Shown: piece by piece, positions 29,534 through 46,695 of the stretch | Position numbering within the stretch: the first letter of the stretch is position 1 | How the letters are laid out: each line of letters begins with the position of its first letter | Assembly (NCBI RefSeq): GCF_000020985.1 | Contig: NC_011296.1 | Coordinates: 1 to 64,000 of the forward strand | DNA: 64,000 bases | Reading direction: 5' to 3' | From: Thermodesulfovibrio yellowstonii DSM 11347 | Lineage (GTDB): Bacteria > Nitrospirota > Thermodesulfovibrionia > Thermodesulfovibrionales > Thermodesulfovibrionaceae | Program-made: the position numbers and the translations under genes | Notes under the pieces: generated by a model | Database searches by the model: none | What the model saw: only the letters and a program-made list of their open reading frames with translations | Told to the model about the DNA's origin: nothing

Positions 29534-31501
29534 TTATTTTCTTCCTGTTATCAATTCTTCTACAACAGATGGATCTGCAAGGGTTGATGTATCTCCGAGT
29601 TCTTCCAGTGCGCCAGAGGCAATTTTTCTTAAAATTCTTCTCATTATCTTACCGCTTCTTGTTTTTGGAAGTCCGCCAGCAAACTGTATTTTATCTGGAG
29701 TTGCGATAGGTCCTATCATCTGTCTTATGTGAGATATGAGCAATTTTTCAAGGTCCCTTGATGGCTCATGTCCTTCTTTAAGAACAGCATAAACATATAT
29801 TCCCTCACCTTTTATATCATGTGGAAATCCTACTACCGCTGCTTCGGCAACAGCTGGATGAGCAACAAGAGCTGATTCAACCTCAGCTGTTCCTATTCTA
29901 TGTCCTGATACATTTATAACATCATCAATTCTTCCCATAAGCCAGTAATCGCCATCTTCATCTACTCTTGCTCCATCACCAGTAAAGTATTTGCCTGGAA
30001 AACGTGAAAAATAGACTTCTTTAATTCGTTTGTTTTCAGGGTCTCCCCATGTTCCTCTAAGCATACCCGGCCATGGTTTTTCAATTACCAGGTAGCCTCC
30101 TTCATTTACTGCTGCAGGAGAACCATCTTCTTTTAGAACTCTCGGAACAACACCAAAAAATGGTCTTGTAGCAGACCCTGGCTTAAGAGTCATAGCACCA
30201 GGAAGAGGAGTTATCATGAATCCACCTGTTTCAGTCTGCCACCATGTATCTACAATTGGACAACGTTCTTTACCAACATGTTTGTAATACCACATCCATG
30301 CTTCAGGATTAATTGGTTCACCAACAGTGCCAAGAATTCTTAAACTTGAAAGGTCATGCTGATACGGCCATTTTTCTCCCTCTCGCATAAGAGCTCTAAT
30401 GGCAGTTGGAGCTGTATAGAATATGTTAACTCTGTGCTTTTCAACAATTTCCCAGAATCTTCCTGGGTTTGGATAGGTGGGAACTCCTTCAAACATTAGA
30501 GAGGTTGCTCCTGCGCTGAGTGGTCCATAAACTATATAACTATGCCCTGTTACCCAGCCTATATCAGCTGTGCAGAAGAATATTTCCTCTGGTTTATAGT
30601 CAAATGTTAATTTAAAAGTAATATTTACATAAACCATATATCCACCAGTTGTATGTAAAACTCCTTTTGGCTTTCCAGTAGAACCTGAAGTATAAAGAAT
30701 GAATAATGGGTCTTCTGCATCCACCTGTTCAGGTTCGCAATAGTTTCCAATCTCAGGGTCATTCATCAGGTCATGCCACCAGAAATCTCTTTCAGGGTCC
30801 ATGTCAACAAAATTTGGAGTTCTTTTTACAACAATTAATTTTTCTACAGAGGGTGCACCTTCCAGTGCTTGATCAGCATTTGCTTTTAAGGGTACGAGTC
30901 TTCCTCCTCTTAGTCCCTGATTGGCTGTGATAAGTAGTTTTGCTCCGCAGTCATTTATTCTGTCTCTAAGAGATTGAGCTGAAAAACCTGCAAAGACTAC
31001 GCTGTGAATTGCACCAATTCTTGCGCAGGCAAGAAGGGTTATAGGAAGTTCAGGAATCATGGGAAGATAAACAGCAACCCTATCTCCTTTTTTAATGCCA
31101 AGCTTTTTTAGAACATTAGCAAATCTATTGACTTCTCTGTAAAGTTGCCAGTAGGTGTATGTTTTTACCTCGCCATCATCAGCTTCCCAAATGAGTGCAG
31201 CCTTATTACCTAAGGTTGAAAGATTGCGATCAAGACAATTATATGAGGCGTTTAGCTTTCCACCTATAAACCACTTTATGTAAGGTTTATTAAAATCATA
31301 GTCTAAAACTTTATCCCATTTTTTATACCATGTAATATTTTGTTCAGCAATCTCAGCCCAAAAACCCTCTGGATCTTCTACAGAACGCTTATACATAGCT
31401 TCATATTCGGCCATGCTTTTAATATAGGCTTTTTCTGAAATTTCTTTTGGTGGAGGGAAAACCCTCTGTTCTTTAAGTAATACATCAATTCCTTGTGTCA
31501 T
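29534..31501 (-). CDS. acs: Acetyl-CoA synthetase (AMP-forming)
   Basis: Converts acetate, ATP and CoA to acetyl-CoA. The ATP loop is [20 protein letters not shown]; the core also has WWQTETGG and the hinge [17 protein letters not shown]. Near the end is PKTRSGK with the catalytic and regulatory Lys at about residue 618, the site acetylated by Pat-type enzymes. The 655-aa length is normal. An excellent AGGAGG precedes the ATG. It is the last gene of the operon beginning at 35993, after exonuclease, DUF485 and ActP-like genes, so uptake and activation of acetate are joined. A GNAT-fused acyl-CoA synthetase is encoded at 43999. Confidence 0.97.
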
Positions 31502-31547
31502 AGATTACCTCCTTTTTTTCTATTGATTTTAACATTATTTTAGAATT

Positions 31548-33086
31548 TTATTCAGCACCGATACCTATATATGACCTTATTTTTTCAGTTTCAAATTTTT
31601 CTTCTGCTTCCTTTTCTTTTGTAAGCCAAGAAACTACTATACCAGCTATAAATGAACCAAAGAATGAAACTATTCCTGGATTTTTCAAAGGAAATATGGG
31701 TTGAGTATTTTTCAATATATCAACCCAAACTGTTGGACTTAAAATTATCAATATAACACTCAACAAAAGTCCTGTATATATGCTCCAAACAGCCCCCTGA
31801 GTGGTGAATTTTTTCCAAAATATAGACATAAACAGAGCTGGAAAATTAGCAGAAGCAGCTACTGCAAAGGCTAAACCAACCATGAAAGCAACATTCTGTC
31901 CTTTAAATACAATTCCAAGTATTATTGCAAGCAATCCAAGGCAAAGAGTAGCTATTTTAGCTGCTTTTACCTCCTGTTTTTCATCTGCTCTTCCTCTCTT
32001 AACCACGCCTACATAGATATCATGCGACACTGCTGATGCACCTGCAAGAGTTAATCCGGCAACTACAGCTAAAATAGTTGCAAAAGCAACAGCCGCTAAG
32101 AATCCTAAAAATATTTCTCCTCCAAGTGCTTCAGCAAGTAAAGGTGCTGCCATATTGCCACCTTTGTCAATTTTACTAATTATCTCATGTCCTACCAATG
32201 CGGCTGCTCCAAACCCAATAGTAAATGTAAGTATATAAAAGTAACCTATGAACCCAGTTGCATAAAATACTGATTTTCTTGCTTCTTTTGCATCAGGAAC
32301 TGTATAAAATCTCATTAAAATATGGGGAAGCCCTGCTGTACCAAACATCAGAGCTATGCCAAGTGATATGGCATCAATGGGATTTTTTATTAAACCACCT
32401 GGCTGAACAAACTTATCACCATACTTAGATGTAACATTTGAGAATAGTTCAACATAATTAAATCCAAATTGATAAAGAGTGAGAAAAACTAAAATTGTGG
32501 CACCTCCAAGAAGAAGACATGCCTTTATAATCTGAACCCAAGTTGTTGCAAGCATTCCTCCGAATAAAACATAAGCTATCATTAGACACCCTACTATAAT
32601 TATTGCCAATTCGTAAGGAAGTCCAAACATTAATTTTATTAAAGAACCTGCACCGACCATCTGAGCAATTAAATAAAAAAGGACAGTTATTAAAGCTCCT
32701 GTTGCAGCAGCTGTTCTGATAGGTCTCTGTCTAAGTCTGTATGCAACAACATCTGCAAAGGTATATTTACCAAGATTTCTGAGCGGTTCTGCAATTAAGA
32801 ACATTACAATAGGCCACCCAACAAGCCAGCCTACTGCGTATATTAAACCATCATATCCTTTCAATGAAACCAGTCCAGCAATTCCGAGAAAACTTGCTGC
32901 AGACATATAATCTCCAGCGAGAGCAAGACCATTCTGTAGTCCTGTTATACTTCTTCCTGCTGCATAAAACTCTGCTGTTGTTCTTGTTCTTTTTGCTGCC
33001 CAATATGTTATATACAATGTTGCGGCAACGAAAAGCAAAAAGAAAAATATTCCTGTCAGTGTTGGTTGTCCAAGAACAGTTTGCAT
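31548..33086 (-). CDS. actP: Sodium:solute symporter, acetate permease type (ActP-like)
   Basis: Thirteen-helix-type transporter of the SSS family, 512 aa. [31 protein letters not shown] near residues 36-66 is the sodium-binding region common to ActP proteins, and [25 protein letters not shown] lies in the middle. It sits between a DUF485 gene (2 bp away) and acs, the classical yjcH-actP-acs grouping. This makes acetate or another short monocarboxylate the likely substrate. AGGAGGTG precedes the ATG. Confidence 0.93.
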
Positions 33087-33088
33087 TA

Positions 33089-33385
33089 TTATTCACCTCC
33101 TATTTTTTCTCTTATCTTAGAAACTTTTTCATCATAAACCTTGTTAGACCATAAAACATAAATTCCTGTAAGTAGCCAACTTAGTATTATTACTCCTATT
33201 CCTATGGGTATACCAACAGTAACAGAACCGTATAGTTTCTCTCCAAGAAACTCTTTGTTGTAAGCGACCAATAAAACAAAACCAAAATAAATAATTAACT
33301 CTAACACGGTAAGAATAAGAGAGATAGAATTTTTGCTCCTCACAATCTCCTTAAATAGAGAAGATTTTAGTAACTCTTCCTTCAT
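33089..33385 (-). CDS. DUF485 (YjcH-like) small membrane protein
   Basis: A 98-aa protein with two hydrophobic helices (about residues 20-45 and 55-78) and charged ends, the DUF485 form known from yjcH. Such proteins accompany ActP symporters and are thought to support them, but their precise action is unknown. AAGGAGG precedes the ATG. It is separated by 2 bp from actP and by 11 bp from the exonuclease gene upstream. Confidence 0.88.
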
Positions 33386-33396
33386 AAAAAACCTCC

Positions 33397-34089
33397 TTAA
33401 AGTTGATAGGCTTCTTTTTTAATGGTTGTTCCGAAGCTTTTTTCATAAATAGAGCCTATTTCTAATAATTCACCAACGGTGAATATTTTTAACTCTCCAA
33501 GATAAGCAAGTAATCTCTGGAAGATTTGTGCTGTAATAAATGCATCTGACAAAGCATCATGTAGTTCTTTTGGTTCAATATCAAGAGATAAAGCAATGTC
33601 TTCAAGTGAATTTTTATTTGAGAAATCAGATGGTAAAATCTCTTTTTTAATAAGCCATTTATAAATTAGTAATGTGTCTATGCTAAAGGGTTCAAAAATC
33701 TCTCTCAAATTATTTCTTATTTCTTTTTTTAAAAAAGTTAAGTCTATATCAACACAATGTCCTACAACTAAACAATTCTTGGAAAATTTTATGAATTCTC
33801 TTAGAATAGGTTCTATTTGAGGACATTTTTCAAGTTCAGAGGGTGTTATTTCATGAATCATTATGCTTTCCTTTCGGAATTTCTTTGTTGAGGGGCTTAC
33901 TGTTCTATAAAAAATATCTCCTATCTTTATAGTTCTTCCCTTCATTTTTATTGCACCAATGGCTATTATGTTATCCCTGAACTCATTTAAACCTGTAAGT
34001 TCTGTATCAACAACTACAAAATCTGTTTCGCTTATTAGCTGTTGAGAGATAATGCCTTTGTCTCTCTTTTTTCTAAAAAATTTAATCAT
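33397..34089 (-). CDS. DnaQ-like 3'-5' exonuclease domain protein, copy A
   Basis: RNase-T/DEDD-family exonuclease of 230 aa. Motif I is FVVVDTELTGL (catalytic Asp and Glu), motif II VVGHCVDIDLTFLKKE and motif III HDALSDAFITAQIF, all with the expected acidic residues. The N-terminus MIKFFRKKRDK is basic. It is 2 bp after the cNMP/DUF294 gene and before DUF485-actP-acs. A homologue with the same N-terminus is at 40474-41151 in the second symporter operon. A nuclease in an acetate-uptake operon is unexpected; DNA repair or nucleotide second-messenger degradation are both conceivable. Confidence 0.85.
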   Translation of the reverse strand: MIKFFRKKRDKGIISQQLISETDFVVVDTELTGLNEFRDNIIAIGAIKMKGRTIKIGDIFYRTVSPSTKKFRKESIMIHEITPSELEKCPQIEPILREFIKFSKNCLVVGHCVDIDLTFLKKEIRNNLREIFEPFSIDTLLIYKWLIKKEILPSDFSNKNSLEDIALSLDIEPKELHDALSDAFITAQIFQRLLAYLGELKIFTVGELLEIGSIYEKSFGTTIKKEAYQL

Positions 34090-34091
34090 AC

Positions 34092-35993
34092 CTATATTAT
34101 CATCAGCTTATATCTCTCAATAAGAATATCCTGAAGCTTTGATATAAGCTGGAAAGTATCTTTTAAGAGTTTTTTCTCAAGATTACTTAATGATTCAGGA
34201 TTAATAAAATTATCAGGCATATTGCCCTGTAACACTTGTTCATACTGATGACGCATTCTTAAAAACATGAGAAACTCAAAAGCATATGCCATTTCGTCTG
34301 CATAATCCCTTACAACAGTATGCTTACTTTTTAATGTTTCAATTCTTTCTAAGGTTGAGGTCTCTCTTATTCCCTTTTCAAGGCTGAAAAGTCTTACTAT
34401 GTCAACAATAGGAGCAATACCCTTAATTTTTAGATTTAGTTTATCTTTATGTTCACCGCTTTTTTCTACAACAAAAGTTTTGAAAAAACCAAGTGGAGGT
34501 TTGTTTCTCACTGCAAGATTAGCTAAATATCCAAGAAATACTTTCTGGTCTTTAACAATATTGAGAAGATAATCTCTTAGATTTTCCTCTAAGGAAAGGT
34601 CTCCATAAATTCCTCTAAAATCAAAAAATATATTTGAAAGGTTGATGTTTTCACCCTTTGGTGTATAAATCCATTGAGAGAAATACTTTTTCCAGACTTT
34701 GAGAGGCTGACACCATTTAGGATTACTTGCCATGATATCTCCAGGACAAGGTGGAAAACCACATTTTAGAAGATTTTCCTTTATCCAAGCTGTAAGTTCA
34801 AGAAAATATTTTTGCACCGCCTCCTGTTGTGCCTGAGGCGGATCAGCATAGATAAGTGCATTATCTTGGTCAGTTTTAAAGGTTTGTTCTTTTCTGCCCT
34901 CTGAGCCAAGAGCAATCCAGCAATAGGGGACAGGGGGTTGCCCAAACTCTCTTTCAGCAAACTGAATAATTTTTCTGACAATTCTATCATTTATCTCTGT
35001 TATGATTCGGGTTATGTTGCTTGCTTTAGCTCCTTGAGAAATCAGATTTCCTGCAATAGTGTTTACTTGTTTGGATGTATTCATTAAGCCTTCTACTGTT
35101 TGCTGAATTTCTAAATCTCTTACAATCGTAACTGGTGAAAAACCCTGAAGCATCATTATGTCGTGATTTGTAATAATTCCTTCAATCTTTCCATTTTTTA
35201 TTACTAAAAGATGGTGTATATTGTATTTAAGCATTCTTACGACCGCTTCAAAACAGAAATCCTTTGCATCAATCTTTATAATTGGATAACTCATTATGTT
35301 TTTAACAGGCTCATCAACATTTCTTGCTGAGGCAACTACTTTTCTGCGTAGGTCTTTGTCTGTGATTATTCCAACTGGAATTCCTTGGCTATCCATAATG
35401 ATTAGAGAACTTATAGAGTTTTCACACATAAGCCTTGCAGCATCTCTTATTGAAGTATTTTCAGGAACAGAAATAACGTTTTTAGTAGCAATTTCTTCAA
35501 CAGGAGTGGTAAAAAGAAGTTTATCAACTGTATAAGTTAGTGTTTTTTTAGACTGCTCTTCTCTGTATCCTTTGTCAAAGTATATGTTCATAAAAGACCT
35601 TAAGAAAAAGTCTCTCACTTCAGAATATTTATTTATCAGATTAGAGATAGTTTCCTTTGGTATTAGATAGCAGATTGTATCATCAATTGCAACAACATTT
35701 GCTCGTGATTTATCTCCACTCATCAAAGAAACAAAGCCAAAACTGTCTCCCTCGCTTCTGTAGTCTATGACAATTTCCTCATTTTCAACTCTTCGGTATA
35801 CTTTAACTCCACCTTTTTTAATAACATAAAGAAACTCACTGGGAGGACCGTCCTGAAGAAGAATATGAGTCCCCTTAGGATAATATTCCATAGATGTTTT
35901 AACTGTTACAGAATTAATAGCTTCATCACTTAAGAATTCAAAAGGAGGAACAGATTTTAGAAAATCCATGATATCTTCAATTATCTTTACCAT
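34092..35993 (-). CDS. cNMP-binding / CBS-pair / DUF294 nucleotidyltransferase-like protein, copy A
   Basis: Signalling-type protein of 633 aa. It has a cyclic-nucleotide-binding fold at about residues 18-130, two CBS domains at about 170-285, and a GlnD-like nucleotidyltransferase domain with GSEGRKEQ (363-370) and DQDNA (375-379). A DUF294 C-terminal domain follows. The pattern suggests nucleotide sensing coupled to nucleotidyl transfer onto an unknown target. It heads the operon with the exonuclease, DUF485, ActP-like symporter and acs. The predicted sigma-54 start is only 4 nt upstream; ATG 35969 is an alternative. The copy at 36117-37958 belongs to the upstream operon. Confidence 0.85.
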   Translation of the reverse strand: MVKIIEDIMDFLKSVPPFEFLSDEAINSVTVKTSMEYYPKGTHILLQDGPPSEFLYVIKKGGVKVYRRVENEEIVIDYRSEGDSFGFVSLMSGDKSRANVVAIDDTICYLIPKETISNLINKYSEVRDFFLRSFMNIYFDKGYREEQSKKTLTYTVDKLLFTTPVEEIATKNVISVPENTSIRDAARLMCENSISSLIIMDSQGIPVGIITDKDLRRKVVASARNVDEPVKNIMSYPIIKIDAKDFCFEAVVRMLKYNIHHLLVIKNGKIEGIITNHDIMMLQGFSPVTIVRDLEIQQTVEGLMNTSKQVNTIAGNLISQGAKASNITRIITEINDRIVRKIIQFAEREFGQPPVPYCWIALGSEGRKEQTFKTDQDNALIYADPPQAQQEAVQKYFLELTAWIKENLLKCGFPPCPGDIMASNPKWCQPLKVWKKYFSQWIYTPKGENINLSNIFFDFRGIYGDLSLEENLRDYLLNIVKDQKVFLGYLANLAVRNKPPLGFFKTFVVEKSGEHKDKLNLKIKGIAPIVDIVRLFSLEKGIRETSTLERIETLKSKHTVVRDYADEMAYAFEFLMFLRMRHQYEQVLQGNMPDNFINPESLSNLEKKLLKDTFQLISKLQDILIERYKLMII

Positions 35994-36008
35994 ATAGTTT
36001 TCAATGAA

Positions 36009-36023
36009 GCAAATATTATGCCA
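36009..36023 (-). promoter_or_regulatory. Sigma-54 (-24/-12) promoter of the DUF294-exonuclease-actP-acs operon
   Basis: On the minus strand the sequence is TGGCATA-N4-TTGC followed by T, a near-consensus sigma-54 element with exact GG to GC spacing. The predicted start is 35997, just before the first gene. GTTAC-type dyads lie upstream at about -86 and -108. Confidence 0.7.
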
Positions 36024-36075
36024 TAGCTTAAAGGTGCTCAGATATTTAAGAGGTTAATTAACTCATTCTAAAAAT

Positions 36076-36112
36076 GTTACTAAAAGTAACTAAGGATGTT
36101 TATTTGGGTAAC
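36076..36112 (-). promoter_or_regulatory. Two activator-site candidates upstream of the sigma-54 promoter
   Basis: A perfect dyad GTTAC-TAAAA-GTAAC occupies 36076-36090 (GTTACT and AGTAAC arms). A second, GTTTA-TTTGG-GTAAC, lies at 36098-36112 with one mismatched arm base. The 22-bp spacing between centres puts them on about the same DNA face. The distance of about 85-110 bp upstream of the start is typical of enhancer sites for NtrC-type activators. Confidence 0.55.
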
Positions 36113-36116
36113 AAAT

Positions 36117-37958
36117 TTATGAAAAATATCTAAGATTATACTTATCAAAAAGAAGTTTTTGAAATTCCTCTATTTTTTTAAAAACATCAATGAGAATTTC
36201 TTTTTCTGTTTTTGATAATTCCTTCGGATTTATATAGTTGTCTGGAGGTATATTATTTCTTATTTTCTTAGCTTGTGATTTTAGTCGAAGAGTCATTAAA
36301 AACCTGTATCCTTCTTCCAGATCTCTTGCAAAATCAGGTGTAAAAATAGATAAATCTTTTAATTTTCTAATTCTCTCAAAGGTATTTGTATTTCTTATCT
36401 CATTATGGAGAGATAAAACTCTTATACCTTGAGTTATAGGGAAAATACCGTATTTTTTTATGTCAATCTCTCCTTTATACTTCCCTTCTTTTTCAGTCTT
36501 CAACTTGCCTAAAAAACCTACAGGAGGAGTGAATTTTATTGCCTCTGAGGCAAGAAAAGGTAGAAAATGTTTGGAAATTCTTATCCTTTGGAATATAAAC
36601 TGCCATAGTTCATCTATTAATTTATCTTCACCGAAAACATTTCTGAAATCAAAAAATATACTTATATTTAAAACATTTTCAGGTTTAGGATTTTCCATCC
36701 ATCTACCAATTTCCTTGAACCATTCTTCTTTTGTTCTTCTCCAGTAAGGATTACTAATCATAACATTTCCCTGACAAGGGGGAAAGCCGATATCAAGCAA
36801 ATATTTTATATATAGTTCTGAAAACTTCTCAAAATATTCCCTATTTGCAGAATTACCTTCAAAAATTAGAGCATTATCCTGATCTGTTTTGAGGCTCTGT
36901 TCTCTCCTTCCTTCTGAGCCTATAACCATAATAGAATAATTACAGGGTGGTAAACCAATTTCTTCCTCTACAAGCCTGACTACCCTTGCCATAAAATGGT
37001 CATTAAGTTCTGCTATATATTTTCCAACATATTCAGGATCTAATCCAGACATAACACCATCAATTACGCTTTCATTTACAAGAGAATAAAGGTAGGAAAG
37101 TTCCTCTGTGCTTTTAGCTCTATCAATTTCCTTAATAAGAAAAATTATGTTTTTACTCTCATGGGATATAACCACTCTATCGTCAAGTATTCCCCAGATT
37201 GCCCCTGAATCCATTATTACTAATTTTCTTATTCTGTGTTTTGCCATTGTTAGCAGTGCATTAAAAAGCGGTTCAGAGGCATCCATTGTAATTATCGGAA
37301 AAGTAGCTACATCTTGAGCTTTTGCAAGAGAAGGATTTATCTCCTTTGCAAGGATTTTTTTTATTATATCTCTTTCTGTAATAATGCCTATTTCTCCATC
37401 CTTTTGAACAAGGCAGAATGTAGAGTCATGCTCAGCCATTGTTTTTGCTGTATCTATTATGTTCATGTTTCCTTTGATTAACAGAGGCTCTTTAATTTTA
37501 ATGTCTTTTATTCTTACATCAAGAAGTCTTTCCATCTGGAAGGAACTTCTTAGCTTAGGGACCTTGTGAACTCTTTTTGCAAGTTCTTTTGTGAAATATT
37601 TAGAAAAACTCTCATATTTACTCAGCAAATCAAGAAATTTTTCTTTTTTTATCTGAAGAATTTTTGTATTATCCTCAACAATTCTTGCAGTAGATACAGG
37701 TGACATCTCACTAACTAAAGATACATAACCAAATATGTCTCCTCCTTTGAGATGAGCTATTAGCTGAGAATTTTTTTCAAGAAATACCTCACCTTCAAGA
37801 ATTATGTATAAGAAATTAAGTGGTTCACTGCCTTCTTTAAAGAGTATTTCATTTTTTTTATAAGTTTTCAATTCAGCTATTGAAACTATTTCTTCAATCT
37901 CTTCTATGGGAAGGGTATCAAAGGGATATATTTTTTTGATTTTCTCTAAATCTTCCAT
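36117..37958 (-). CDS. cNMP-binding / CBS-pair / DUF294 nucleotidyltransferase-like protein, copy B
   Basis: A 613-aa paralogue of the 34092 gene with the same order: cNMP-binding fold (about 10-120), CBS pair (about 150-265), a nucleotidyltransferase core with GSEGRREQ (347-354) and DQDNA (359-363), and a DUF294 tail. Divergence is high outside the motifs, so this is an old duplication. It is the last gene of the operon that begins at 41151 (exonuclease B, DUF4212, symporter, small membrane protein). Catalytic residues appear intact. Target and ligand unknown. Confidence 0.85.
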   Translation of the reverse strand: MEDLEKIKKIYPFDTLPIEEIEEIVSIAELKTYKKNEILFKEGSEPLNFLYIILEGEVFLEKNSQLIAHLKGGDIFGYVSLVSEMSPVSTARIVEDNTKILQIKKEKFLDLLSKYESFSKYFTKELAKRVHKVPKLRSSFQMERLLDVRIKDIKIKEPLLIKGNMNIIDTAKTMAEHDSTFCLVQKDGEIGIITERDIIKKILAKEINPSLAKAQDVATFPIITMDASEPLFNALLTMAKHRIRKLVIMDSGAIWGILDDRVVISHESKNIIFLIKEIDRAKSTEELSYLYSLVNESVIDGVMSGLDPEYVGKYIAELNDHFMARVVRLVEEEIGLPPCNYSIMVIGSEGRREQSLKTDQDNALIFEGNSANREYFEKFSELYIKYLLDIGFPPCQGNVMISNPYWRRTKEEWFKEIGRWMENPKPENVLNISIFFDFRNVFGEDKLIDELWQFIFQRIRISKHFLPFLASEAIKFTPPVGFLGKLKTEKEGKYKGEIDIKKYGIFPITQGIRVLSLHNEIRNTNTFERIRKLKDLSIFTPDFARDLEEGYRFLMTLRLKSQAKKIRNNIPPDNYINPKELSKTEKEILIDVFKKIEEFQKLLFDKYNLRYFS

Positions 37959-37962
37959 AACA

Positions 37963-38196
37963 TCAAAAATATTTTACAACTAAAAGGCGAAGAATAACTA
38001 TAAAGATTATTATAAAAATTGTTGTTCCTTTAGGGAATATCCTTCTTGCTAATGTATATAAGGGTTCAGTTGTTCTCATAAAAAGTCCATAGATGGGGTT
38101 TTTAGGATCTTTTGTAAAAAAAGATAAAATGGCTCGTCCTATGACGAGCCACATTATAAAGGAAAGGGTATAATTGAGAAAAAGCTTTAATGTCAT
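37963..38196 (-). CDS. YggT-like small membrane protein
   Basis: A 77-aa protein with two hydrophobic segments (about residues 7-27 and 58-74) separated by a loop, FTKDPKNPIYGLFMRTTEPLYTLARRIFP, that resembles YggT-family proteins. Its ATG overlaps the symporter stop codon (ATGA), so translation is coupled. It lies 4 bp before the DUF294 copy B gene. It could help symporter assembly. The similarity is by eye only. Confidence 0.6.
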   Translation of the reverse strand: MTLKLFLNYTLSFIMWLVIGRAILSFFTKDPKNPIYGLFMRTTEPLYTLARRIFPKGTTIFIIIFIVILRLLVVKYF

Positions 38197-40202
38197 TCCT
38201 CAACTCCACCTTTTACTGCACCTTTGGGATATCTTATACTGTCAACAAATTCCTGGAGTTCTTGAGAGGGTGCAGCTGTAATTCTTGATACGACCAGAGC
38301 CACAATAATATTTGCAGGAAGTCCAAATATGCCTGCTGCAATTGTTTTTATCCCAAACCAGTCTATTCCATAAAATCTGCTTCCAATTATATAATATGTA
38401 GTAATTAGTAGCCCAACGATCATTCCTGTTACTGCTCCAGTTTTGTTCATTCTTTTGTCCCATATTCCAAGTACAACAGCTGGAAAGAATGTAGCAGCAG
38501 CAAGGGAAAATGCCCAGGCAACAAGTTCAACAATTATTGCCAGTTTAAAACTTGCCACATAGGCACCAATTGCAGCAACAACGATTAAGAGAGCTTTTCC
38601 AATTTTCACTCTTGTGGACGGTGATATATTTGGATTAATGATTTTGTAATAAAGGTCATGGGATATGGCATTTGAAATGGTGATTAGAAGTCCATCAGCA
38701 GTGGAAAGCGCCGCGGCAAGCCCTCCTGCAGCGATTAATCCAGCAACTACATAGGGGAGTCCTGCAATTTCTGGAGTTGCAAGCACTACTGCATCAGCCC
38801 TTATTATAATTTCAGAAAACTGAATAATTCCGTCTCCGTTCATGTCTTTTATAGAGATTAATCCTACTGAAGCCCATTTGGCAACCCATCCAGGAAGAGA
38901 GGTAAAAGCCTGCCCAACTATGTTTGTAAGAATCTCACTTCTTGCAAAAGCTGCGTAAGCTGGTGCAGTAAAGTAAAGCAAGAATATGAAAAATAAAGCC
39001 CAGGCAGCAGAACTTCTTGCTTCACGAACTGTAGGTGTAGTATAAAATCTCATAAGAACATGAGGTAACCCTGCTGTTCCAACCATCAGACAAAAAGTAA
39101 GTGCAAGAAAGTTAATTATTCCTTTTGTATCCGAAGGTGGAGATACATAGGACTTAGGTGGCTTAGACATTACCTGCGCTTCTTTCATCGTAGCAGTCCA
39201 TTTTTCTTTTGCTTCTTCTGGTGTCTTAGGATAGTCTTTCAGAGCTTTTTCAGCCTTTGTTCTTTCAGGGTTTTCTGTAGGTAAGTTTTTGAGCTTTTTT
39301 TCAAGCTCGGTCTTTCCTTTTTGCCAACTTTCTGGTAATTCTTTAATTTTTGCATTTAATTCCTCAGCCTTCTTTTTCCATTCCTGTCTAACCTCTATTT
39401 CTTTAACGTCATTTACAAGAGCTTTTTGTTTTGACTCAATCACCTGTAAAGCTTGTCCATACATAACCTGCGGAATTGGGATTCCTGTATGTTTATAAGA
39501 AATGGCAACAACAGGGATCATATAGGCAGTTATCAATATTATATACTGAGCAACCTGTGTCCATGTTACTGCTCTCATGCCACCCAGAAACGAACAGACT
39601 AATATGCCTGATAAGCCAAGAAATACACCTGCTTCAAAGGGAATTCCCACAAATCTGCTTGTAATAATTCCAACACCTACAATTTGTGCCACAAGATAGG
39701 CAAAAGAGACTATTATGGCAGATACAATTCCTATCATTCTTGGAAGTTTACCACCATATCTGGCTTCCAGAAAATCTGGAATAGTAAACTGACCAAATTT
39801 TCTTATGTAAGGTGCAACCATAACTGCTAAAAGAACATATCCACCTGTCCATCCCATAATAAAGGCTAAACCGTCATAGCCCTGCAAATAGAGAGCACCT
39901 GCCATTCCAATAAAAGAAGCTGCACTCATCCAGTCTGAAGCTGTAGCCATACCATTAAATATTGCAGGAACTTTCCTACCCGCAACATAATATTCAGCAA
40001 CAACTGAAGTTCTTGACAGGATGCCTATCGCAGCATAAACTCCAATTGTTCCAAATAGAAAGGCATAACCTATATACTTCTGTTGAAGCCCCATATTTTC
40101 TCCAATCCAAAGGGCTATAACAAAAATTAGAAATATACCAGTGTATACTCCATAAATCTGCCTTAATTTTTTCTTCCATGCTTGCATTGCATCATTTGCC
40201 AT
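38193..40202 (-). CDS. Sodium:solute symporter with cytoplasmic coiled-coil insert (VC_2705-type)
   Basis: SSS-family transporter of 669 aa, longer than ActP (512 aa). The sodium-site region EYYVAGRKVPAIFNGMATASDWMSAASFIG is clear. Between about residues 250 and 360 there is a Lys/Glu-rich, helical, probably coiled-coil insert (EWKKKAEELNAKIKELPESW onward) ending in PPKSYVSPPSD, before TAGLPHVLMRFYTTP resumes the transporter. This form is typically paired with DUF4212, which lies 2 bp upstream here. Acetate or another monocarboxylate is the likely substrate. The insert may be a docking site for the DUF294 protein; that is inference. Confidence 0.88.
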   Translation of the reverse strand: MANDAMQAWKKKLRQIYGVYTGIFLIFVIALWIGENMGLQQKYIGYAFLFGTIGVYAAIGILSRTSVVAEYYVAGRKVPAIFNGMATASDWMSAASFIGMAGALYLQGYDGLAFIMGWTGGYVLLAVMVAPYIRKFGQFTIPDFLEARYGGKLPRMIGIVSAIIVSFAYLVAQIVGVGIITSRFVGIPFEAGVFLGLSGILVCSFLGGMRAVTWTQVAQYIILITAYMIPVVAISYKHTGIPIPQVMYGQALQVIESKQKALVNDVKEIEVRQEWKKKAEELNAKIKELPESWQKGKTELEKKLKNLPTENPERTKAEKALKDYPKTPEEAKEKWTATMKEAQVMSKPPKSYVSPPSDTKGIINFLALTFCLMVGTAGLPHVLMRFYTTPTVREARSSAAWALFFIFLLYFTAPAYAAFARSEILTNIVGQAFTSLPGWVAKWASVGLISIKDMNGDGIIQFSEIIIRADAVVLATPEIAGLPYVVAGLIAAGGLAAALSTADGLLITISNAISHDLYYKIINPNISPSTRVKIGKALLIVVAAIGAYVASFKLAIIVELVAWAFSLAAATFFPAVVLGIWDKRMNKTGAVTGMIVGLLITTYYIIGSRFYGIDWFGIKTIAAGIFGLPANIIVALVVSRITAAPSQELQEFVDSIRYPKGAVKGGVEE

Positions 40203-40204
40203 GG

Positions 40205-40462
40205 TTATTCCTCCTCTAATCCATATTTTTTATCAAGTTCATTCATCTTCATGGAGTAAAAATAATTAAGAAGAACAAATACTATAAGAGAACCCTGTGA
40301 ACCCATGTAGTAGCCAAATGGAAAGCCTAAAATTGTAATGCTATTAAGAGAAGAAGCAAAAATTGCTGCCAAATAGGAGACAGCAAACCAGATTAGCAAG
40401 ATAACATACATTAGAATTCTGTTATCTCGCCAGTAAGCATCAAGCGTTTCCTTCGTTACCAT
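40205..40462 (-). CDS. DUF4212 small membrane subunit of SSS transporter
   Basis: An 85-aa protein with two hydrophobic helices (about 16-38 and 45-70) and NRILMYVILLIWFAVSYLAA near the start, the DUF4212 form. It is found directly before VC_2705-type symporters and is assumed to be an accessory subunit. It mirrors the DUF485 partner of the other symporter. GGAGG precedes the ATG. Exonuclease B ends 11 bp upstream. Confidence 0.88.
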   Translation of the reverse strand: MVTKETLDAYWRDNRILMYVILLIWFAVSYLAAIFASSLNSITILGFPFGYYMGSQGSLIVFVLLNYFYSMKMNELDKKYGLEEE

Positions 40463-40473
40463 AAATACCTCCT

Positions 40474-41151
40474 TTAAAATTGATAGTTTTTTTCATATTT
40501 CCCAAACATGTATCCGGATACAGTTGGTTTCCCTATTTTTTTCAGTAAATCAAACCAGGAAGCATTGATTTTTTGAACCATGATAATCTCTCTTTGAAAA
40601 ATTTGTGCTGTTATAAAGGCATCATAGAGAGCATCATGAAGCATGTCTACTTTTATATCAAAGGCTTCCGCTATTTCAGGCAATGATTTTGCTCCTTTGA
40701 ATTTTTTAGATATAATTTCTCTTTCTATTAACCAGTTAAATATTATGTATGTATCAATTGCTTCAGGAGTGAAGCCTGTATTTAGCCATTTTGAAGTCTC
40801 CTTTCTCAGAAACTTAATATCAATCTCAATAAAATGTCCTACAATTGGTCTATTTTTGATAAAGTCAATAAATTCTTTAAGAATAAGTTTTATATCAGGA
40901 CATTGTTCCAACTCCGTTGATGTCAATTTATGTATTAATACAGCTTTGTCTTTTGGCTTACACTGAGGATTTAAAATTCTATAGAAAATATCCCCAATTA
41001 AAATGCTTCTTTCCCTCATTGTGATTGCGCCGATGGATATAATACTGTCATTTTTTTCATCTAATCCTGTGAGTTCGGTATCAATAACAACAAATTCTTT
41101 ATTACGGAAAATTTCTGATTCTATCCTGTTTTTTCTAAAAAATTTAAACAT
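40474..41151 (-). CDS. DnaQ-like 3'-5' exonuclease domain protein, copy B
   Basis: A 225-aa DEDD exonuclease like the one at 33397, sharing the MFKFFRKNR start. Motif I is FVVIDTELTGL, motif II PIVGHFIEIDIKFLRKE and motif III LHDALYDAFITAQIF, so catalytic acids are present. It is the first gene of the DUF4212-symporter-YggT-DUF294 operon. No Shine-Dalgarno is visible and a sigma-54-like element predicts a transcript starting 2 nt before the ATG, so translation may be leaderless. Confidence 0.85.
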   Translation of the reverse strand: MFKFFRKNRIESEIFRNKEFVVIDTELTGLDEKNDSIISIGAITMRERSILIGDIFYRILNPQCKPKDKAVLIHKLTSTELEQCPDIKLILKEFIDFIKNRPIVGHFIEIDIKFLRKETSKWLNTGFTPEAIDTYIIFNWLIEREIISKKFKGAKSLPEIAEAFDIKVDMLHDALYDAFITAQIFQREIIMVQKINASWFDLLKKIGKPTVSGYMFGKYEKNYQF

Positions 41152-41164
41152 GAAAAAAGATTAC

Positions 41165-41179
41165 TCAAATAACATGCCA
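41165..41179 (-). promoter_or_regulatory. Sigma-54-like promoter of the exonuclease-DUF4212-symporter operon
   Basis: The minus strand reads TGGCATG-N4-TTGA, with correct GG spacing but A instead of C at -12. The predicted start at 41153 is 2 nt before the ATG. Taken alone it is weaker than the site at 36009. It gains support from upstream dyads with the same geometry. Confidence 0.45.
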
Positions 41180-42652: not shown

Positions 42653-44002
42653 TTAAGCAGACCTTGGAATTCCCCACTTTTTTCTCTTTTCCCATAAAGC
42701 CTTTCTTGTAATACCAAGCATATCAGCAAGTTCTTGCTCTGTATAAATAGATTGATATTTAAGAATAAATTCCTTGGTGTATTCTTCAATAGAAAGCACG
42801 GGGATTTCCTTTGCTCTATCAAAAAATTTTTCAGGATGCTGTATATATTCTGGAAGGTCCTCTGGCATTATTGTATCTGTTTCGCAGAAAACAACCGCCT
42901 GTTCAATAACATTTTGTAACTCTCTTATGTTCCCTGGCCATGGATGTTTGTAAAGAAGTTTCAGAGCCTGAGAGTCTATTTTTTTCAAATTTTTGCCCAT
43001 TTTTATTGCAAATTTCCGCATAAAATGATGAGCAAGAATCTCAATATCTCTACCTCTTTCTCTTAGAGGAGGAATGCTTAAAGTAATAACATTCAATCTA
43101 AAAAAGAGGTCTTCTCTGAATTTTCCTTCTTTTACCTCTTCAATTAAATCTTTATTAGTTGCAGAGATAAATCGGAGATCAACTTTTTTACTTATGACGC
43201 TACCAAGTGGACGAATTTCTCTATCCTCTAAAACTCTGAGAAGTTTTGCCTGAAGACTTAATGGTAGATCTCCAATTTCGTCAAGGAAAACCGTACCTCC
43301 ATCAGCTATCTCCAGAAGCCCCTTTTTGTCAGAAGCAGCTCCTGTAAAAGCTCCTTTTATAAAACCAAAAAGTTCACTTTCAAGAAGATTTTCAGGAAGA
43401 CTTGCGCAATTGATTGCCACAAAAGGTTTTTTTCTTCTATAACTTGCCTCATGTATTGCTCGTGCAAAAAGTTCTTTACCAGTGCCTGTCTCACCAAGAA
43501 GCAGAACATTTGTTGGAGTATTAGCAATTTTTCTGATTTTTTCAAAAAGAAGTTTAATCTCTACTGATTCACCTATTATTGCACAGAGTTCTTCTTTTTC
43601 TTTAAAGGTTGGTATTTTCTCCTTTGGCTCTTCAACTATTGATGGTTTAATGAGTTTTTTAAGAGAGAGTTTTATTTCATCATAAACAAAAGGTTTTATA
43701 AGATAATCTTCTACTTTTATTTTAATTGCTTTAAGAGCAGTGCTTATTGATGGATAGGATGTGGTAAGAATAATTTTTGCATTGGGATTTAAAATCTTAA
43801 TTTTGCTTGCTAACTCTATACCGTCACCATCTGGTAGTTCTATTTCAATAATTGCAAGATCATGAATATAGGATGCATAAATATTTAATGCCTGCTGAAA
43901 ATTTGATGCACAATCAACAATAAAACCCTCTTTTTGTAGATAATTACTCAGACTTTCTCTTAGAGTGCTGTTACCATCTGCTATTAGCAGTCTTTCACTC
44001 AT
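42653..44002 (-). CDS. Sigma-54-dependent activator (NtrC family) with degenerate receiver
   Basis: Activates sigma-54 RNA polymerase. Domains are a receiver (about 1-115), an AAA+ domain (about 140-380) with GETGTGKELFARAIHEAS and the sigma-54 contact loop GAFTGA, and a Fis-type HTH at the C-terminus (EQELADMLGITRKALWEKRKKWGI). The receiver keeps T80/T81 and K103. The phosphoacceptor position is Glu53 (DLAIIEIELPDG), and one of the paired acids near the N-terminus is Gly10. Glu can mimic phospho-Asp, so activity may not need a kinase, and none is encoded here. Its start overlaps the preceding synthetase gene by 4 bp. It is the obvious candidate regulator of the two sigma-54 promoters at 36009 and 41165. 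Confidence 0.92.
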   Translation of the reverse strand: MSERLLIADGNSTLRESLSNYLQKEGFIVDCASNFQQALNIYASYIHDLAIIEIELPDGDGIELASKIKILNPNAKIILTTSYPSISTALKAIKIKVEDYLIKPFVYDEIKLSLKKLIKPSIVEEPKEKIPTFKEKEELCAIIGESVEIKLLFEKIRKIANTPTNVLLLGETGTGKELFARAIHEASYRRKKPFVAINCASLPENLLESELFGFIKGAFTGAASDKKGLLEIADGGTVFLDEIGDLPLSLQAKLLRVLEDREIRPLGSVISKKVDLRFISATNKDLIEEVKEGKFREDLFFRLNVITLSIPPLRERGRDIEILAHHFMRKFAIKMGKNLKKIDSQALKLLYKHPWPGNIRELQNVIEQAVVFCETDTIMPEDLPEYIQHPEKFFDRAKEIPVLSIEEYTKEFILKYQSIYTEQELADMLGITRKALWEKRKKWGIPRSA

Positions 44003-46695
44003 GAATTGTTTTCAAGATTTAGCAAGACCTTAACACTATCATCCTCCACATGATGTCTTACAAATCCCAATCGTTCAGCGAGTCCTAACATATAAGTATT
44101 AATTCTTAATATATCCATCCAGATTCTTTTTACTCCTAAATCTTTTGCTACTTCAATAGCATAAGTGCATAATGCCTTTCCAACGCCTTTTCCCTGCCAC
44201 TCATCTTCAACAAGTATAGCCATATCTGCATCTATTCCATCAGGGTCACGAGAGAGTCTAACGTCCCCAATTATTTTTTCTCCATCAATATCTTTTACAA
44301 CACAAACAAAGGCTAAGTTTCTATCATAGTCAACCTGGCAGAATTTAACAAGATTTTCATGTCTTAGGTCAATTGCTCTCTGGAAAAATCTCAAGCTTAT
44401 GGTTCTTTCAGAACATCTTCCAAGAAGATTTGCAATCAAAGTTTCATCTTCAGCTTTTATGGGCCTTACGATTGCTTTTAAGCCATCTTTCAGTTCAACC
44501 TCTTTATAAAGATGAACAGGATAAGGACATATGCTCAAATGAGGTGGACAAAACTCTCCTTTCACCACTGTTTTTTTCTTTGGTGCGGTTTTGTCTAAAA
44601 TTATACTACAGTCAAGAGCAAATATCTCAGAGTCTGTGATAAATATAGGATTAATATCAAATTCTTTAATTTGTGGGAAATCAGATATGAGATAAGAAAA
44701 TTTTACAACAGTTTCTTCAAGCTTAAGCAGGACATCTTCATAGTAGGGGTATTTTTTAAGATATCTATAAATTTTTGTTTCTTCCATCAGTCTTTTTGCG
44801 AGTGTCTGATTTAAAGGAGGAAGTCCAACTGAATAGTCTTCCAGTGCTTCAAGAAGATTACCTCCTGTGCCAAAAAGAATAACTGCTCCAAAAGTAGGAT
44901 CTTTCTTTGCTCCAAGAGCAATCTCATATCCATATGTTATAACCATTGGCTGAACAATAACTGAAGCCTCAGCATCCCCGTGTTCATTAGCAAGTTTTTT
45001 AAGCCATTTAAATCCTTCAATAGCTTCTAATTCATCTCTTATGTCAAGAATCACACCACCTTTTTTAAATTTATGTATTATTTTTGGTGTGTCTATCTTT
45101 AAAACAATTGGATAGCCTATTTCAGTAATTGCACTTTTAAGTTCTTCTAAGGTATTTGCTCTTTTTGTAAGAATTACAGGAATTCCGTATGCAGAAAGAA
45201 TTTCTGAAGCTTCAAAGAATGTAGGAATGGACCTACCTTCAGAAATTGCTCTTTCAATAATTTCTGCTGCTCTTTCTGCATTAAAAGTTACATCTTTAAG
45301 AATGGTTTGAGGTGTTTCAAGAAGAAGTTTAAGGTTGAAATCATAACGATACATATACATGAATGTTCTTACTGCCTGTTCAGGTGTTACAAATGTAGGA
45401 ATTCCATGTGAATTAAGTAATTCCCTTGCTTCGTTAACCAGCGCAGCTCCCATCCAGTTAGTAAGCACAGGTTTATAAGGATTTTCTTTTACTATTTTTA
45501 TAACTCTTTGAGCTGTTTCTACAGGCTGCGTTCCCAATGAAGGAGTAAACATTATCAGAGCTCCATCTACATTTTTATCTTTAATGATTATTTTTAAAGC
45601 ATTTTCATAATCCTCAGGCTTTGCATCTGAGACTAAGTCAAGAGGATTTCTAATTATACGAGCAGGAACAATTCCTTCAAGTTCTTTTACTGTTTCCTGT
45701 GAAAATTCAGCAAGCTCTCCTTCAAGTTTAATCAGGCTATCTACCGCACTAACAGCTGGAGCGCCCGCATTTGTAATGATTGCAAGTCTTTTTCCTCTTG
45801 GTCTCCTCTGTTTTGAAAGAGTTTCAGTTATATAAAACATATCAAGAGTTTCATCTACCCTTACAGCGCCTGCTCTTTTAAAAGCGGTATCATAAACTTT
45901 GTCTTCTCCGGCAAGAAGCCCTGAATGTGTTAAAGCAACTTCCAGAGACTCAACAAATTTACCGGATTTTACTATGACAATGGGTTTTGAAAAAGCAAAA
46001 GAACGTGCAGAAGTCATAAATTTTCTGCCATTTTTTATAGATTGCATATATATGACTATTGCTCTTGTGGAAGGGTCAACGCCAAAAAAATCTATAAGGT
46101 CAGCAAAGTCTATATCTATGTCAGAACCGAGAGAAACAAAATAGCTGAAACCAATGTTTTTATCAGCTGCTCTGTCTAAAAGAGCAACTGAAAGAGTCGC
46201 ACTTTGTGCTATTAAAGCAATATTTCCTTTATTAAGTTTTCTTCTGAAAAGACTTACATTCAGATTTATTCCTGGTCTTATAAAGCCAAGACTGTTAGGA
46301 CCTAAAAGTCTGAAGCCATATTTTCTATGAATTTCCTCTATTTTTTCTTCAAGATGCATTGCTTCTTTAACTTTTGTTCTGAAGTCAGGGCAGAGCAGAA
46401 TAACTCCTTTAGCACCTTTTTGCCCGCATTCTTCAAGAATATCCAGAACATTTCCTCCACATTCTTCTGCTAAGACAACGAGGTCTATTTCTTTTGAAAT
46501 ATCGTTTAGTCTTTTATATGCTTCAACTCCCTGAACAGAGTCGGATTTTGGATTTACAGGATAAACAATTCCTTTATATTCCTCACCAATAAGATTTCTG
46601 AAAACAGTATATCCGATTGTTCCAGGGGTATTATCAGCACCGATTACAGCAATTCTTCTTGGATTAAAGAAATATTCAAGATTATAGATTGACAT
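43999..46695 (-). CDS. ADP-forming acyl-CoA synthetase fused to GNAT acetyltransferase (Pat-like)
   Basis: The 898-aa protein has a CoA-binding domain (about 8-100), succinyl-CoA-ligase-like domains, an ATP-grasp domain (about 490-700) and a C-terminal GNAT domain (about 735-890, with [20 protein letters not shown]). The architecture is that of PatZ/Pat protein lysine acetyltransferases, which inactivate Acs. Here the phospho-His of active ADP-forming acetyl-CoA synthetases is kept as His257 ([10 protein letters not shown]), so the synthetase part could be functional. It overlaps gyrA upstream by 14 bp and the sigma-54 activator downstream by 4 bp. Acs at 29534 carries the target Lys. Confidence 0.88.

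Follow-up and report, generated by a model that had tools for sequence, protein, structure and literature searches.

Two adjacent operons on the minus strand of the Thermodesulfovibrio yellowstonii DSM 11347 genome raise the question of why an exonuclease and a nucleotidyltransferase should be encoded, twice in succession, beside a sodium:solute symporter. Both operons lie in the first 64,000 nucleotides of contig NC_011296.1 (the window, i.e. the whole stretch of DNA analysed here), and each combines a symporter of the SSS family and a small partner (DUF485 or DUF4212) with a DEDDh exonuclease and a nucleotidyltransferase (NTase) composed of a cyclic nucleotide-binding (cNMP) domain, CBS domains and a DUF294 domain. 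A sequence-only reading of this DNA had seen in them a duplicated module and a signalling circuit. We report here that the NTase and the exonuclease form a real conserved unit and propose, at somewhat less than even confidence, that they act as writer and eraser in a reversible nucleotidylation of protein that controls the adjacent uptake pathway.

Gene content of the two operons

All genes of both modules are open, intact frames at the coordinates listed below (frames checked; families confirmed by Pfam and NCBIfam), and the earlier description of two adjacent operons, each with a symporter, a DUF485 or DUF4212 partner, an exonuclease and an NTase of 613–633 aa, was accurate. In order of transcription, from high to low coordinates, module B comprises exoB, DUF4212, SSS, YGGT and ntB, and module A, separated from it by a gap of ~120 bp between ntB and ntA, comprises ntA, exoA, DUF485, ActP and Acs:

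40474..41151, minus strand: exoB, DEDDh 3'-5' exonuclease (RNase_T) of 225 aa that leads module B (PF00929, 89.5 bits; DEDDh intact), from a dedicated subfamily always accompanied by a nearby DUF294 NTase
40205..40462, minus strand: DUF4212 small symporter partner (TIGR03647) of 85 aa (Pfam, NCBIfam)
38193..40202, minus strand: sodium:solute symporter of the VC_2705 family, 669 aa, with a long insertion (TIGR03648, 770 bits)
37963..38196, minus strand: YGGT-family small membrane protein (PF02325), its gene overlapping that of the symporter by 4 bp
36117..37958, minus strand: ntB, cNMP-CBS-CBS-DUF294-DUF294_C NTase of 613 aa (Pfam), active site intact
34092..35993, minus strand: ntA, cNMP-CBS-CBS-DUF294-DUF294_C NTase of 633 aa (Pfam), with residues G363, S364, R367, E369, D375, D377 and D458
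33397..34089, minus strand: exoA, DEDDh exonuclease of 230 aa (Pfam), with residues D28, E30, D116, H177 and D182
33089..33385, minus strand: DUF485 (YjcH-like) small symporter partner (PF04341, 102.8 bits)
31548..33086, minus strand: ActP-type cation/acetate symporter (NF006903, 762 bits; cut-off 750)
29534..31501, minus strand: Acs, acetate-CoA ligase (TIGR02188, 1007 bits)

Module A extends past the range on which the sequence-only reading had commented, its small partner, ActP and acs lying at 29534-33385, and it has the make-up of an ActP/YjcH acetate permease, with a match to the ActP model above the cut-off, a DUF485 partner and an adjoining acs. The transporters of modules A and B are members of the ActP/YjcH and VC_2705/DUF4212 systems, respectively; the difference is the added NTase–exonuclease pair, without which acs-yjcH-actP operons of the E. 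coli type occur. A YGGT gene recurs behind DUF4212-type symporters at the Nitrospirota loci surveyed. The complete 2.0-Mb genome contains exactly two DUF294, two RNase_T and two SSS genes and, because all of them sit within these modules, the association of NTase, exonuclease and symporter is not one of chance.

Conservation of the NTase–exonuclease pair

Co-occurrence outside the genus had been named as a test that could refute the proposed system, and the genes do co-occur far beyond it. The material surveyed consisted of 80 loci from genome contigs, an even 148-genome sample (drawn over the phylum around a deltaproteobacterial, Desulfobacterota-type, genome) and plasmid records, with a further 118 evenly drawn Nitrospirota genomes for co-occurrence. 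The pair was seen in Nitrospirota, Desulfobacterota, Acidobacteriota, Bacteroidota and Pseudomonadota. Among the Nitrospirota genomes, 36 carried both genes, 81 neither, one the NTase alone and none the exonuclease alone (Fisher p 1.4e-29), the single NTase-only assembly having an exonuclease fragment at a contig end. Every copy of the exonuclease subfamily in this set (49/49) lay within 3.6 kb of a DUF294 domain and 39 directly adjoined one; given how few RNase_T genes a genome carries, we estimate that chance would place the two side by side in roughly one percent of cases. In the even Desulfobacterota-type sample, an exonuclease was found within 1.5 kb of 16 of the 25 full-length NTases with enough flank, and a symporter or acs within 6 kb of 20 of 25.

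The partner pathway differs by locus. Acetate-type symporters are present at most loci, and the pair also lies inside a galactose operon with a sodium/sugar symporter in Salinivibrio, inside 2-keto-3-deoxygluconate and alginate clusters in Vibrio, and inside an arabinan cluster in Hymenobacter, so that the strict tie to a carboxylate transporter that had been supposed is not supported.

Active sites and predicted folds

Judged from their sequences, both enzymes are under selection for catalysis. The G-S, D-x-D and third carboxylate of the NTase active site are complete in ntA (G363 S364 D375 D377 D458), with equivalents in ntB, and both proteins have the catalytic motif of the GlnE/GlnD type. 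Degenerate NTases account for 15 of 199 relatives, 12 of the 15 sharing a locus with an intact NTase. The DEDDh set is complete in exoA (D28 E30 D116 H177 D182) and intact in exoB, and is strict in 122 of 130 exonucleases, six more having a D-to-E exchange.

Two NTases share an operon, the active site being degraded in one and intact in the other, at L104, L106, L107, L108, L144, L147, L170, L184, L186 and L187; most of these operons also adjoin an exonuclease, and in L184 and L186 it is the cNMP-containing copy that is degraded. In Vibrio-family pairs from sugar clusters (L112, L117, L203 and L204), D-to-E exchanges are matched between the third carboxylate of the NTase and the ExoII aspartate of the exonuclease.

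In the AlphaFold model of ntA (predicted local distance difference test score, pLDDT, 87.7), residues 295-632 matched the deadenylylation domain of GlnE (1v4a; Z 27.4, root-mean-square deviation, rmsd, 3.9 over 336), and the NTase half also matched the GlnE adenylylation domain (3k7d; Z 26.7, rmsd 3.1 over 309) and DrrA (6yx5; Z 25.8, rmsd 3.9 over 299). As modelled, the match to GlnE and DrrA, whose domains either add AMP to proteins or take it off, covers the NTase domain of ntA and its helical C-terminal domain, and the predicted fold of DUF294 points to protein nucleotidylation. The cNMP and CBS parts of ntA match their own families. A single-sequence search matched no solved structure for the DUF294 half and, among the matches listed from a profile search, coverage was mostly of the cNMP and CBS parts. 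Pfam recognizes a single DUF294 domain in the NTase, with no HD domain and no built-in removing domain of the GlnE/GlnD type. The model of exoA (pLDDT 90.3) is an exonuclease fold of the RNase H-like kind, with PolC (Z 22), DinG and epsilon exonucleases nearest (Z 22 to 20) and with RNase T and the Cap18-type exonuclease 7t2s (Z 18.0) also among its matches.

Two further claims of the sequence-only reading concern the sensing and N-terminal regions. Nucleotide sensing by the cNMP domain was not established: of the cAMP contacts E72 and R82 (numbering of the catabolite activator protein, CAP), the first is replaced by F in ntA and by Y in ntB, and the second is kept in ntA and in only 49 of 199 relatives and is lost in ntB, which therefore lacks both. 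Canonical cAMP sensing was rejected on these grounds. The genome contains three class III cyclases, and cAMP may therefore be made. The common start noted for the two exonucleases reflects similarity between the paralogues and is not a feature of the family at large. Starts rich in basic and aromatic residues are confined to the genus and some of its relatives, and a shared N-terminal membrane anchor was rejected.

Sensor fusions and replacement of the exonuclease

Each enzyme is found elsewhere as the output domain of membrane sensors:

L103:5311-7377 (minus strand), L079:5440-7722 (minus strand), L137, L138, L166, L174, L201, L114 and L118: exonuclease sensor fusions
L158:270-4036, L160:6761-10524 and L163:3429-7099: DUF294 NTases whose genes are overlapped by that of a phosphoesterase

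In several lineages the exonuclease forms the C-terminal output domain of sensor proteins of 590-1134 aa, which contain HAMP and PAS domains where these were detected. These fusions hold a stretch that, judged by eye, resembles a histidine-kinase core minus its histidine, and they often adjoin a symporter-histidine kinase or a response regulator. In L153 and L154 it is the NTase that serves as output domain, here of a Cache-PAS-PAS-CBS receptor, and proteins of equal length are found in L158-L160 and L163. In L158, L160 and L163 the gene for a calcineurin-like phosphoesterase overlaps that for a DUF294 NTase of ~1000 aa and no exonuclease is near; an unrelated phosphodiester-cleaving enzyme takes the place of the exonuclease beside some sensor-type NTases. 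The idea of a signalling circuit is supported by these fusions of both enzymes, by the occurrence of the pair in at least five phyla and by the selection on catalysis.

Counterparts in Pseudomonas and in known systems

As a gene set the system is not undescribed, as had been suggested, since the operon is already known from Pseudomonas. There, MxtR/ErdR (CrbS/R) control an NTase–exonuclease operon as part of the acetate regulon, and this operon adjoins yjcH-actP in P. aeruginosa (PMC9927547, PMC8402216, PMC5715377), and PA3232-PA3235 are induced on propionate (PMC9765439). In P. putida an exonuclease mutant (pp_0353) and an actP-I mutant were impaired on pyruvate and an NTase mutant (pp_0354) was normal, and mRNA decay was proposed as the role of the nuclease (PMC9927547). 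The pp_0354-pp_0353 and PA3232-PA3235 genes resemble those of Thermodesulfovibrio in the pair itself and in the link to acetate and pyruvate use (PMC9927547, PMC5715377, PMC9765439), whereas Thermodesulfovibrio differs in having two adjacent modules, probable NtrC-type/sigma-54 control and no symporter-kinase in the genome. In the open-licence literature searched, we found no paper joining DUF294, exonuclease and symporter and no mechanism given for the pair; the strict pairing, the fusions, the phosphoesterase replacement, the AMPylase fold and the sigma-54 control are together undescribed in that literature.

Among known systems, GlnE/GlnD, which reversibly nucleotidylate nitrogen regulators, share with the DUF294 proteins the NTase motif, the predicted fold, a helical C-terminal domain and metabolite-sensing regulatory domains, but the second activity would here belong to a separate DEDDh exonuclease rather than to a second NTase or an HD domain, and the setting is carbon uptake. 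In SidM (DrrA)/SidD of Legionella an AMPylase of related fold is likewise encoded beside its eraser (PMC12409994), although the target is a host GTPase and the eraser is related to protein phosphatases, in contrast to the bacterial metabolic setting and the exonuclease of Thermodesulfovibrio. The pair is not that of CBASS (CD-NTase and Cap18 exonuclease), as the NTase is a DUF294 protein and not a CD-NTase, and a defence system was rejected, PADLOC having given generic DEDDh matches and NTase matches to the cNMP domain only.

A writer–eraser model and its alternatives

We infer protein nucleotidylation, the nucleotide used, its target, the role of the eraser and the direction of the effect as follows. 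The DUF294 protein would be a GlnE-like NTase that senses the nucleotides or energy state of the cell through its CBS domains and possibly its cNMP domain. It would put a nucleoside monophosphate (NMP), most likely AMP, on a protein hydroxyl, probably that of a tyrosine, in the neighbouring uptake and activation pathway, where the symporter, its small partner or Acs are the best candidate targets, and the mark would lower the activity of the target. The DEDDh exonuclease would cut the 5'-phosphodiester of the protein-bound terminal nucleotide, freeing 5'-NMP. Such removal by an exonuclease is chemically reasonable because an NMP that is linked to a protein by its 5' phosphate and has its 3' end free is itself a terminal nucleotide, so that its release is the same chemistry as removal of a 3'-terminal nucleotide. 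Snake venom phosphodiesterase is a 3'-exonuclease. Its release of AMP from tyrosine-AMP proteins (PMC3612183, PMC12409994) provides a supporting precedent. In Nitrospirota sigma-54 would activate the operons together with an NtrC-type response regulator, which has a symporter-type histidine kinase alongside in several relatives.

We read the pair as writer and eraser because of the 49/49 pairing, the predicted AMPylase fold, the phosphoesterase replacement, the sensor fusions of both enzymes and the selection on catalysis, and an exonuclease that undid an inhibitory mark made by the NTase would predict the asymmetry seen in P. putida, where loss of the eraser is harmful and loss of the writer harmless. 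It is still plausible, as had been suggested, that the transporter or a regulator is what the transferase modifies, the modelled fold now pointing to protein nucleotidylation; that the nuclease degrades a nucleotide signal is the less likely reading, as removal of a protein-bound nucleotide fits the evidence better than degradation of a diffusible one. With appreciably more doubt, we think it possible that a DEDDh exonuclease family acts on nucleotidylated protein (as a de-AMPylase or de-NMPylase) and, paired with a GlnE-like writer, switches nutrient uptake in many bacteria. If true, this would give a function to two widespread uncharacterised proteins, the DUF294 NTases and their exonucleases, and would account for the Pseudomonas phenotypes that were left open. 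Enzymes that take nucleotides off proteins would gain a new class, and sodium:solute symporter pathways would prove to be under a general control at the post-translational level, with the uptake of acetate, pyruvate and sugars governed, like nitrogen assimilation, by reversible nucleotidylation.

Several observations weigh against reversible protein nucleotidylation. A common fold is no proof of function, nucleic acids are the usual substrates of DEDDh enzymes, and we know of no DEDDh de-AMPylase. Replacement by a calcineurin-like enzyme rests on three loci, and the pyruvate phenotypes also fit RNA decay independent of the NTase. Among cNMP-less NTases of the even Desulfobacterota-type sample, a symporter was near 18 of 26 and an exonuclease near 7 of 26, and the NTase as writer would thus often dispense with the exonuclease as eraser. 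The type of transporter differs (SSS, TRAP, MFS), so that no one target protein is common to all loci. Finally, two complete genomes (G040 and G054) have kept ntB, with an intact active site and a ratio of non-synonymous to synonymous substitution rates (dN/dS) of about 0.1, indicating purifying selection, directly behind the response regulator (L121:5478-8700, L125:6328-9576), although exoB, DUF4212, the symporter and YGGT are gone; the target is therefore not only that symporter.

Of the other explanations, we take most seriously, while thinking it rather unlikely, that the exonuclease acts as an RNase and trims the mRNAs of genes for transport or central carbon metabolism, the NTase belonging to the same regulon and sharing no substrate with it. 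The RNase_T-type fold and DEDDh site agree with this, as do the confinement of the mutant phenotype to the nuclease and the mRNA decay proposed by the Pseudomonas authors (PMC9927547), but it leaves unexplained why the exonuclease never occurs without the NTase, why a phosphoesterase can replace it and why both enzymes are fused to sensors. A diffusible oligonucleotide or cyclic nucleotide, made by the NTase and degraded by the exonuclease, would likewise make the two a synthesis and degradation pair, and would suit the sensor fusions and the Cap18-type match (7t2s, Z 18.0). We consider it improbable, as the modelled NTase half is closest to protein AMP transferases and has a DUF294_C substrate-binding domain, and none of the proteins seen repeatedly at the surveyed loci is a dedicated receptor.

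It is very unlikely, in our view, that the NTase extends an RNA 3' end (e.g. of a tRNA or small RNA) which the exonuclease trims, with control of the translation of uptake genes as the outcome. Polymerase-beta-type NTases and DEDDh exonucleases do work on RNA ends in other systems, and RNase T is among the fold matches of the exonuclease, yet the whole NTase half matches protein AMPylases, and the genes with which the pair is associated are those of uptake and activation operons rather than RNA genes. We attach very little probability to a general DNA proofreader or repair enzyme placed in these operons by chance. This genome has no other RNase_T-family gene, and the fold comes closest to the exonuclease domains of PolC and epsilon, but a proofreader should be present irrespective of its partner: the subfamily is found in 36 of the 118 Nitrospirota genomes, never without DUF294, and 81 have neither gene. 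Its use as the output domain of PAS sensor proteins is a further difficulty. The general proofreader that the sequence-only reading had set as a counter-case is weakened accordingly as an alternative.

Promoters and regulators

Candidate control elements were found upstream of both operons:

36008..36023, minus strand: sigma-54 (-24/-12) promoter TGGCATAATATTTGCT upstream of ntA, 11/11 consensus positions
41164..41179, minus strand: imperfect sigma-54-like site TGGCATGTTATTTGAG upstream of exoB, 9/11 consensus positions by inspection
42653..44002, minus strand: NtrC-type sigma-54 response regulator (Pfam), with homologues upstream of the module across Nitrospirota

In Thermodesulfovibrio, 9 of 11 sequences have the motif 27-30 bp before the annotated ntA start, and among other Nitrospirota it precedes 28 of 45 lead NTase genes; the frequency in shuffles is 0.3-0.7%. 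For the Desulfobacterota and Acidobacteriota the rate is that of the background (1/61). Sites like that of exoB also precede exoB in L122, L123, L127, L128 and L033. The NtrC-type response regulator likely activates both operons. Throughout the genus the ntA site (window 35993-36023) ends ~15 bp before the start codon, so that either the message has almost no leader or translation truly starts farther downstream (e.g. near 35969).

Homologues of the response regulator are accompanied by a symporter-histidine kinase in several Nitrospirota, and kinase-sized symporter proteins were found at 17 other loci. In this genome the SSF matches are the two transport symporters only, with no symporter-histidine kinase among them, and a CrbS/R (MxtR/ErdR) module of such a kinase with a response regulator is absent.

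History of the two modules

The modules are not copies of one another, as their description as duplicated implied. Whereas exoA and exoB are 52% identical, ntA and ntB share 31% identity, the two symporters ~30% and that in parts, and the DUF485 and DUF4212 partners are unrelated. The NTase tree places ntB, together with its orthologues, among proteobacterial forms and far from ntA. The exonuclease trees make exoA and exoB of Thermodesulfovibrio each other's sister, and they likewise unite both copies of a second genus (L128) in one group with the exonuclease of its relative (L036). The approximately unbiased (AU) test rejects joining Thermodesulfovibrio exoB with exoB of the second genus (p 6.6e-7). 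Duplication of a whole module was rejected on this discordance, with deep and separate NTases and exonucleases that are sisters within the genus. Module B is therefore a mosaic, and its exonuclease either arose as a copy of the one in module A or was homogenised with it. In both genera (L128:7189-15662 and the window) the exonuclease paralogues are alike and their NTase partners are not, a pattern of repeated duplication or gene conversion.

Beyond the response regulator, and overlapping its gene, the window encodes at 43999-46695 an acyl-CoA synthetase-like protein fused to a GNAT acetyltransferase, which is Pat-like and a possible regulator of Acs. This gene has stayed beside the module in several Nitrospirota (L044, L050, L120, L133 and L134).

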